A stretch of 64,000 nucleotides of DNA from positions 1-64,000 of the forward strand of contig JAAWDH010000025.1 in the NCBI GenBank assembly GCA_022793675.1. Reading direction: 5' to 3'. Shown here piece by piece: positions 3,138 through 5,255 of this stretch. Origin of the DNA: Oscillospiraceae bacterium (lineage in GTDB: Bacteria > Bacillota > Clostridia > Oscillospirales > Ruminococcaceae). Position numbers and translations under genes: made by a program. The notes under the pieces were generated by a model. That model ran no database searches. It saw only the letters and a list, made by a program, of their open reading frames with translations, and had not been told where the DNA came from. How positions within the stretch are numbered: position 1 is the first letter of the stretch; each line of letters opens with the position of its first letter.

Positions 3138-3185
3138 TTGACTTTTTTCTCTACATCGTGTAAAATATAATCACTACATGATGTA
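3138..3185 (+). promoter_or_regulatory. blaI-blaR promoter with twin BlaI-type operators
   Basis: The -35 TTGACT (3138-3143) and -10 TAAAAT (3161-3166) are 17 bases apart. Two dyads of the form TACA-N3-TGTA lie at 3152-3162 (overlapping the -10) and 3175-3185 (near the start of transcription). TACA/TGTA dyads are the known recognition half-sites of BlaI/MecI repressors. The arrangement predicts autorepression of the following gene pair. Confidence 0.85.
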
Positions 3186-3226
3186 GAGCATTTTCTATAT
3201 GGATCCATACTAAAGGAGTGAAGCCT

Positions 3227-3589
3227 ATGGCGCAAAAAATTTCCGACGCCGAGTTGGAGGTCATGGAAGCTGTTTGGCAGCTGCCCGACCCCTGCACCTC
3301 CGCCCAGCTGCAAACGGCCCTTTCCAAGAAAAACTGGAAACAAACAACACTGCTGACCTTTCTCACAAGGTTAACTGAAAAGGGGCTGCTGACCACAAAA
3401 AAGCAGGGCAAGCAGAACCTCTACTCCCCCGCCCTCTCGCGGGAAGGCTATCTGGCACGGGAAACCCGTTCATTCCTCGCCGGGCTGCACGGCGGCTCGC
3501 TGCGCAGCTTTATTGCGGCGCTGAATGCCGGCGAAAAGCTGCAGGAAGAGGAGCTGGATGAACTGAGAAGCTGGCTAGAAAGCCAATGA
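3227..3589 (+). CDS. BlaI/MecI-family repressor
   Basis: This is a winged-helix repressor of 120 residues in the BlaI/MecI/CopY family. The N-terminal region ISDAELEVMEAVW and the wing region are typical. The ATG at 3227 was chosen because AAAGGAG sits 8 bases upstream; an in-frame GTG at 3218 would lie inside that ribosome site. In the known systems the repressor dimer is inactivated after its M56 partner senses a cell-wall signal. Its partner follows after 9 bases, and twin TACA/TGTA dyads cover its own promoter. No beta-lactamase gene is near, so resistance should not be assumed. Confidence 0.92.
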   Translation: MAQKISDAELEVMEAVWQLPDPCTSAQLQTALSKKNWKQTTLLTFLTRLTEKGLLTTKKQGKQNLYSPALSREGYLARETRSFLAGLHGGSLRSFIAALNAGEKLQEEELDELRSWLESQ

Positions 3590-3598
3590 GGAGACGCT

Positions 3599-5200
3599 AT
3601 GAAAGTTTTTCTTGACTACTTGCTGGTTATGGCGCTCTATGGCGGCATAGCGGCCCTACCGGGCGTTACCCTTTGTCTAAAAAAGCAGGGGCCGGCAAGA
3701 ATGCGGCTGCTGTTCGCGGTTATACCGATGGTTTTGCTGCTGACGCCGCTGCCGCTGTTTGTCCATCGCTGCGAATACCGGACGGTTCCGGTGCTGGCAT
3801 CGGGCGGCGAGTTGACATTAATGGCAGCACCGCAGACAAACGGGATTCTTCCTGAGACGTCAGCCGTACAGTCGGGCTTTACAGCATTGACGGCAGAGTT
3901 TTTCGTCCTGTTATGGGCAGTCGGCGCTTTTATGGTGTTCCTTTGCCAGCTTGCAGGCGGGCTGTCGGTGCGGAAATTTGCCCAGAACCGCGTCCCAGCT
4001 TCCAAAGAGGCGGAGGACGTATTAGTAAAACTTTGCAGGGAGATGAGGCTAAAAACGCCAACAATCGCTTACAGTGCTTTAACGGACACGCCGCTGCTTA
4101 CGGGGCTTTTCCGGCCGATTATTTTGCTGCCTGCCCAGGAGCTTAGCAAGGATGGGCTGGAATTGGTACTGCGCCACGAGCTGACCCATTTAAAATATCG
4201 CCATCTTTGGCTGCAGGCGGCGGCCAGATTAACGGCGGCGCTGTATTGGTTCCATCCCGCGGGATGGTGGCTGCTGCGGCAGCTGCCCCTGCTTTGCGAG
4301 GAAGCTTGCGACGAAACCGTAGCGGATAGCCTGCCGCCTGCCAAACGGAAACAATACGGGCTTGTCATCCTGCAATTTGCCGGCGCGGCAGCACATACCC
4401 GCTGCGCGGCCCTGGCAAGCCCTCGTCAAAATATGGAAAGAAGGCTGAAATCTGTGATCAATCCAATGAGTTTTTCTAGGAAATGCCAAATTATCGCGGC
4501 AGCTGCTGCGGCTCTGCTGCTTTGCGGCAGCTGTGCACTGTCCTATCAAGCCGCGCCGACGGAACTGAAAGACGGGCCGGACGAACTAGCTGTTTCCGAC
4601 CTTGAAAACCCGTCTGACACGTCGGAAGATCCCAAAGAGCCGGAAAGCAGTGCCCCTGCTGATGAATCAAGCGCTCCCGAAGCGCCTGCTGAATCGGGCA
4701 ATGTAACAGAATTTCGACATCCTGAAGACCCCGCCTCCAGCGTTCCGGTCTCGGAACCTGTCTCTAAACCGCCCGAATCCAAAATCTCTGAATTGCCTGC
4801 AGCAAACGAAAACAGCGAAGATGCCAATCTGGAACCTGCGTATGCTACGTATCAGTCAAGTGCGCCGATCAGCGCGCCTTACAACAGTTCCCACAAAGGC
4901 GTTGACTTAAAGGAAGAAGCCGGAAGCGAGGTGCGTGCCTACGCCGGCGGGACAGTGGTACTGTCAGAATATTGCGGCAGCCGCGGCAATACCGTCAAAA
5001 TTGACCATGGCAAAGGGCTGAAGACAATCTATGCCCATTGCGGCCAGCTGCTGGCCAAGGTGGGCGACACTGTTTCTGCTGGCGATGCCATCGCCATTGT
5101 AGGCAGCAGCGGGATGTCCACCGGCCCCCATCTGCACGTTGAAGCAGAAAAGGACGGCCAGCTAATCGACCCGACGCCCCTTTATTGGAAAGCTGAATAG
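3599..5200 (+). CDS. BlaR1-like M56 metallopeptidase fused to an M23 endopeptidase domain
   Basis: The 533-residue membrane protein begins with several transmembrane segments and an M56 protease domain carrying HELTH at 193-197, the zinc motif of BlaR1/MecR1. A further membrane segment lies near residues 300-317, followed by a Ser/Glu/Pro-rich linker of about 100 residues. The C-terminal region (about 415-530) is an M23/LytM peptidase with HKGVD (His432, Asp436) and HLH (511-513), so the zinc ligands look intact. Classical BlaR1 carries a penicillin-binding sensor at this position. It may bind or cut peptidoglycan outside the cell and signal to the BlaI-like repressor encoded just upstream. 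That function is inferred. Confidence 0.88.
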   Translation: MKVFLDYLLVMALYGGIAALPGVTLCLKKQGPARMRLLFAVIPMVLLLTPLPLFVHRCEYRTVPVLASGGELTLMAAPQTNGILPETSAVQSGFTALTAEFFVLLWAVGAFMVFLCQLAGGLSVRKFAQNRVPASKEAEDVLVKLCREMRLKTPTIAYSALTDTPLLTGLFRPIILLPAQELSKDGLELVLRHELTHLKYRHLWLQAAARLTAALYWFHPAGWWLLRQLPLLCEEACDETVADSLPPAKRKQYGLVILQFAGAAAHTRCAALASPRQNMERRLKSVINPMSFSRKCQIIAAAAAALLLCGSCALSYQAAPTELKDGPDELAVSDLENPSDTSEDPKEPESSAPADESSAPEAPAESGNVTEFRHPEDPASSVPVSEPVSKPPESKISELPAANENSEDANLEPAYATYQSSAPISAPYNSSHKGVDLKEEAGSEVRAYAGGTVVLSEYCGSRGNTVKIDHGKGLKTIYAHCGQLLAKVGDTVSAGDAIAIVGSSGMSTGPHLHVEAEKDGQLIDPTPLYWKAE

Positions 5201-5215
5201 CGTTCATAAAATGAC

Positions 5216-5255
5216 AAAAACTCCCTCTCTGATCTGGGCCAGAGAGGGAGTTTTT
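5216..5255. terminator. Bidirectional terminator
   Basis: A 15-bp perfect stem (5216-5230 with 5241-5255) has A-rich and T-rich flanks on opposite sides. It sits between the convergent blaR-like and XRE genes and can terminate both transcripts. Confidence 0.92.

Follow-up and report, generated by a model that had tools for sequence, protein, structure and literature searches.

What does a membrane protease of the BlaR1 type respond to, when the domain behind its last transmembrane segment is an M23 peptidase? BlaR1 is a textbook antibiotic receptor, and many of its relatives have no penicillin-binding domain. The question is raised by a gene in the window (the whole stretch of 64,000 nucleotides analysed here), in which an M56 protease and an M23/LytM domain are encoded in one frame behind a BlaI-type repressor gene. 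Here the ectodomain hints at the likely stimulus, i.e. peptidoglycan, and the circuit is small, consisting of two genes and two operators with a regulon that seems to be the circuit itself. Our tentative answer, to which we give somewhat less than an even chance, is that the protein is a BlaR1-type antirepressor with a wall-directed M23 ectodomain, which by binding or by cutting would induce its own operon. If this is true, a bacterium senses its own wall via a hydrolase-like domain, and the switches of beta-lactam resistance are linked to wall homeostasis. The two genes and their parts are as follows.

3227 to 3589, + strand: BlaI/MecI-family repressor gene (Penicillinase_R, E 4.7e-29), with the ribosome-binding site AAAGGAG at 3213-3219
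3599 to 5200, + strand: M56-M23 fusion gene, a single uninterrupted open reading frame of 533 amino acids
3836 to 4453, + strand: M56 protease domain, residues 80-285 (Peptidase_M56 of Pfam, E 1.6e-33)
4484 to 4540, + strand: fourth transmembrane segment (TM4) predicted from hydropathy, residues 296-314, with CGSC (309-312) as its C-terminal part
4547 to 4888, + strand: extracellular linker rich in Ser, Pro, Glu and Ala by composition, residues 317-430
4889 to 5173, + strand: M23/LytM domain, residues 431-525 (Peptidase_M23 of Pfam, E 1.2e-28)

Both Pfam E-values of the fusion protein are far beyond the gathering cut-offs. The M56 catalytic set consists of HELTH (193-197) and E234, and the M23 metal and catalytic set is complete, five out of five (H432, D436, H480, H511 and H513); with all of these intact, the M23 domain of this protein could still be an enzyme. 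It matches solved M23 structures, for example 3slu (E 2.6e-16), and the 114 residues of the linker include 19 Ser, 18 Pro, 17 Glu and 16 Ala. The open reading frame, the Pfam matches and the residues thus bear out what the sequence-only reading had described, namely an M56 domain with HELTH, a Ser/Glu/Pro linker and an M23 domain with HxxxD and HxH. Its further claim that a beta-lactam-binding domain is missing holds as well, because Pfam finds no penicillin-binding (class D beta-lactamase-like) domain in the protein and recognizes M23 as the sole domain C-terminal of TM4. On the basis of this absence and of the NCBIfam equivalog model blaR1_generic, against which the protein scores 98 bits with a cut-off of 400, it is outside the beta-lactam-sensing BlaR1 family.

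The anatomy of the protein suggests nevertheless that it works like BlaR1. Four transmembrane segments are predicted from hydropathy (approximately residues 8-26, 37-55, 101-119 and 296-314), and the stretch 121-295, which lies between TM3 and TM4 and holds HELTH, contains 25 Lys/Arg versus 15 Asp/Glu, while the linker region 316-430 contains 5 versus 25. This charge pattern and the order of the segments fit the BlaR1-type topology, in which the protease would be cytoplasmic and the C-terminus external. A profile built from twelve M56 regions also matched the full-length BlaR1 structure 8EXP over residues 3-322, i.e. TM1 to TM4 (E 5e-27). Single-sequence structure prediction of the fusion was uninformative (pLDDT 40.7), and libraries of defence and phage proteins gave no informative match.

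The repressor gene precedes the fusion gene with a gap of 9 bp, so that the adjacent repressor assumed earlier is confirmed by its Penicillinase_R match and its alignment to MecI/BlaI crystal structures (1sd6 and 1okr; MecI 1sd6 over residues 6-121). Translation probably does not begin at the listed GTG (3218), and we prefer the ATG at 3227, which lies behind AAAGGAG. In Staphylococcus aureus, BlaR1 cleaves itself between Ser283 and Phe284 and cuts BlaI between Asn101 and Phe102 (PMC9834060). The repressor of the window has A101 and L102 (numbered from GTG 3218; DNA 3518-3523) aligned to the N101-F102 cleavage position of MecI, and the predicted self-cleavage position of the receptor lies between A271 and L272, giving Ala-Ala before Leu at both sites. 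Among 67 receptor-repressor pairs, the residue after the cut (P1') was Phe, Leu or Met in all repressors and in all but two receptors; matching of the P1' residue within these pairs was not above shuffling. Both sites are compatible with cutting of the BlaR1 type, and that BlaI is cleaved we infer by analogy with BlaR1.

The control region in front of the repressor gene and the end of the operon contain the following elements.

3138 to 3166, + strand: promoter-like TTGACT-17-TAAAAT of the blaI-M56-M23 operon (10 of 12 consensus positions, a match that by itself says nothing on activity)
3152 to 3162, palindrome without strand: BlaI-type operator 1, TACATCGTGTA, between the -35 and -10 hexamers
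3175 to 3185, palindrome without strand: BlaI-type operator 2, TACATGATGTA, at the expected transcription start
5216 to 5255, both strands: terminator-like bidirectional hairpin between convergent genes (-27.6 kcal/mol, z -5.2)

Two sites of this operator type are found in the window, whereas 0.02 are expected from shuffles, and a similar palindrome is present 5' of blaI in most relatives. Elsewhere in the 2.73-Mb genome, the exact pattern occurs once, where it overlaps the start codon of a gene of xylulokinase type. Sites with two mismatches were considered as external targets and rejected as noise, because 38 were found versus 83-89 in a reversed-pattern control. In the relatives, extra TACAYNRTGTA sites were about as frequent overall as in the control and yielded no common target. 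Because the operator is otherwise nearly absent from the genome, the regulon looks self-contained, i.e. limited to its own operon. There is a parallel in Clostridium thermocellum, where BlaI_0696 and BlaI_1845 are Clostridia BlaI proteins encoded beside BlaR1-type genes with paired inverted repeats, and where BlaI_1845 has ordered inverted-repeat pairs solely at its own operon, which is its whole regulon (PMC8457756). Those circuits differ from ours in an annotated beta-lactam response, further operon genes and another operator sequence, and their ectodomains are not described (PMC8457756).

Directly upstream on the same strand (290-2999, +) lie murQ, which encodes N-acetylmuramic acid 6-phosphate etherase and is above the TIGR00274 cut-off, a BadF/NagK-type kinase gene and then a metallo-beta-lactamase-fold gene, all of which precede the operator-bearing promoter. 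Wall-sugar recycling genes (murQ and the kinase gene) are thus neighbours of the operon of the putative wall receptor. The two close sisters (L038 and L039) also have a homologue of the metallo-beta-lactamase-fold gene near the locus. A beta-lactamase linkage was rejected, because this gene lies before the promoter and its product falls well short of the cut-offs for B3 and ComEC.

Compared with BlaR1/BlaI and MecR1/MecI of staphylococci and Bacillus licheniformis, the locus is alike in that a BlaI-type gene adjoins a gene for an M56 protease with a cytoplasmic HExxH...E, that an external C-terminal domain follows TM4 and that palindromic operators lie on its own promoter. It differs in having M23/LytM where BlaR1 has the class D beta-lactamase-like penicillin-binding domain, in the long flexible linker and in the lack of a resistance gene under the operators.

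We searched for other M56-M23 fusions and their neighbours, as the sequence-only reading had proposed, with a profile of six fusions in 394 genomes from the order, 397 from the family and 299 from the phylum, and annotated the fetched loci with HMMs built for this analysis. Because these genome sets overlap and few candidates were scored per genome, the counts, 39 M56-M23 fusion frames and 33 M56 frames without M23, are lower bounds. The fusion is therefore present in dozens of genomes and not absent from relatives, and an assembly or frameshift artefact is rejected. For 37 fusions the contig continues upstream, and every one of them has a BlaI gene there; the other two are at contig ends. Other genomes of the phylum have further full-span matches (G941, G836, G948 and G915). 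Mapping the M23 label onto a tree of M56 domains takes 10 changes, of which well-supported branches force at least 2, and the joining of M23 to M56 has probably happened on more than one occasion. The M23 domain might be incidental, one of many ectodomains shuffled onto a generic M56 antirepressor and without a role at the wall, since M56 ectodomains are very diverse and mostly without a Pfam match, and M23 is common in the genome of the window (14 PF01551 matches including the fusion protein). We regard this as very improbable, because the fold and most of the residues have been retained over deep divergence, the M56-M23 pairings are repeated and long-lived, and the operon is conserved.

The main rival takes the M23 domain as the induced output. 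M56 and BlaI would sense otherwise, either through the TM2-TM3 loop or through a cytoplasmic wall-derived peptide bound to BlaI, and induction would merely raise the amount of a membrane-tethered peptidoglycan endopeptidase. The linkers of the fusions (46-222 residues, median 118) form a tether that suits an enzyme reaching the wall. No conserved downstream gene stood out among the fusion loci and no other gene has the operator pair, so that the M23 protein is the sole evident product. BlaI/MecI-family repressors of B. licheniformis bind a peptidoglycan dipeptide (PMC3305447), which accords with this rival and at the same time gives listening to the wall a precedent in BlaI systems. Such an output role is possible but, in our judgement, on the unlikely side.

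The active sites of the two domains bear on this choice. HExxH and the downstream Glu of M56 are kept in all 39 fusions, whereas all five M23 positions are intact in 27, including the window protein, as expected for an enzyme, and damaged in the other 12, which belong to several lineages and have retained the architecture; the first His of HxH is lost in nine fusions. Loss in most homologues, the outcome that would have undone the sequence-only reading, is thus rejected. Among full-length stand-alone M23 controls, 2 of 34 were damaged versus 12 of 39 fused domains (Fisher p 0.008), where the controls came from the same and related genomes, many loci had been picked as close matches, and the sequences are related to one another. 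In one genome (G033, locus L042, 6401-10335, - strand), the M23 domain of the fusion is 73% identical to the M23 domain of the protein encoded by the gene that follows it, and has Gln where this neighbour keeps the first His of HxH. A damaged fused domain beside an intact neighbour is the pattern expected if an enzyme became a receptor domain, and the BlaR1 sensor, which resembles class D beta-lactamases, is a parallel for such a change. Likewise, the degenerate LytM proteins EnvC, NlpD and SpoIIQ have the M23 fold with an altered active site, as in the 12 damaged fusions, and serve in binding or regulation instead of cutting; they differ in that they activate amidases or build a channel, that none is fused to an antirepressor protease, and that the M23 domain of the window is intact. 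In that part of the family in which a catalytic His is lost, the sequences favour a binding or sensing role. The damaged sites weaken the output rival and the self-only regulon and the tether strengthen it, which leaves it a real, if minor, chance.

We favour the wall receptor, because M56 catalysis is kept in 39 of 39 fusions while M23 catalysis is dispensable in 12, because P1' is hydrophobic in the repressor as well as at the self-cleavage position of the receptor, and because M56 and M23 are strong matches in one frame with the BlaI gene 9 bp upstream. The match to 8EXP, the BlaI gene before all 37 testable fusions, the two operators on the promoter, the probably repeated joining of M23 to M56 and the damaged copy in G033 speak for it too. 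Judging from the anatomy, the operon's own promoter would be silenced at rest by BlaI dimers, one on either palindrome, and outside, M23 on its long flexible tether would engage peptidoglycan cross-links. A change in the state of the wall may then alter the contacts among M23, TM4 and the extracellular loop and release the M56 protease, which, by analogy with BlaR1, would cut BlaI in the cytoplasm, probably near A101-L102. The operon would be derepressed and the M23-bearing protein itself would accumulate, and in the genome of the window it may also trim the wall. This mechanism is built on the observed parts in their topology-consistent order, the operators, the terminator, the recurrence and the conservation pattern, and we infer the direction of signalling, the ligand and the cutting of BlaI. 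With a disordered-looking linker of 114 residues, direct allosteric coupling to TM4 is harder to see than for BlaR1, and the intact M23 domain of the window and the lack of covariation between receptor and repressor at P1' also speak against this reading. Of the sensor circuit proposed from the sequence, the M56 antirepressor, the adjacent BlaI, the external M23, the operators on its own promoter and the recurrence are supported, and the part that makes M23 the input is not; that M23 senses the state of the wall is plausible, yet unproven.

The outer end of TM4 brings in a further explanation, in which TM4 serves as an internal type II signal peptide. Signal peptidase II would cleave the protein ahead of the Cys and turn M23 into a separate lipoprotein, either decoupled from M56 or signalling by its release. 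A Cys is present at this end in 53 of the 72 M56 proteins, often as LTAC, LVAC, LIGC, LAGC or FVAC, and a strict lipobox in 22 of the 72 versus 6.1 in shuffles of that stretch (maximum 15 in 2000), a statistic that ignores the relatedness among these proteins. The motif is common to fusion and non-fusion proteins (e.g. L143, L142, L145, L151, L160, L109 and L112), and the enrichment suggests that many M56 proteins may be processed by signal peptidase II; on this hypothesis, the ectodomain would be a lipoprotein in the lipobox-bearing members. In S. aureus, the type I signal peptidase SpsB cleaves BlaR1 in the corresponding linker, so that the sensor is shed (PMC9834060). For the window protein we consider such processing improbable, because its CGSC is non-canonical and fails at -3, even though its sister L038 has LGSC and many relatives have LTAC or LVAC. 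The strict motif is missing from about two thirds of the M56 proteins, and our literature search for a lipobox with BlaR1 or M56 with signal peptidase II found no paper. It is a doubtful but slightly better proposition that the M56 antirepressors of Clostridia-type bacteria are receptor-lipoprotein polyproteins, in which a freed, lipid-anchored M23 would work in the wall and the presence or loss of the ectodomain would set the activity of M56 on BlaI. If that were true, the product would be a wall-state receptor with a domesticated wall hydrolase as its sensor, catalytically dead in part of the family.

The M56+M23 domain pair is already known as a listed architecture without a functional study. 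A 2022 review of M23 proteins includes it among architectures that jointly make up <1% of M23 proteins and remarks that M56 had yet to be shown to take part in wall cleavage; the operon, repressor, operator, conservation and function are not described there (PMC9662197). Our literature search found no paper that tests the arrangement of BlaI with M56-M23. The name 'M23/M56 family metallopeptidase' is also in use at NCBI.

Several loci of related arrangement were encountered. The genome of the window has further BlaI-M56 pairs (L043, L044 and L045) with large C-terminal domains for which Pfam has no match, so that several unassigned ectodomains share one receptor scaffold. Another locus (L141, 2099-6520, + strand) has two BlaI-M56 pairs in tandem, with a GACAAYTGTC-like palindrome before each repressor gene. 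On a plasmid of Subdoligranulum variabile (OY725877.1; L220, 3000-6342, + strand), a BlaI-M56-M23 locus is followed by a further M23 gene, and the reading frame of its M56-M23 gene (3390-5197) is apparently interrupted within the M56 part, close to a short stretch that is repeated.
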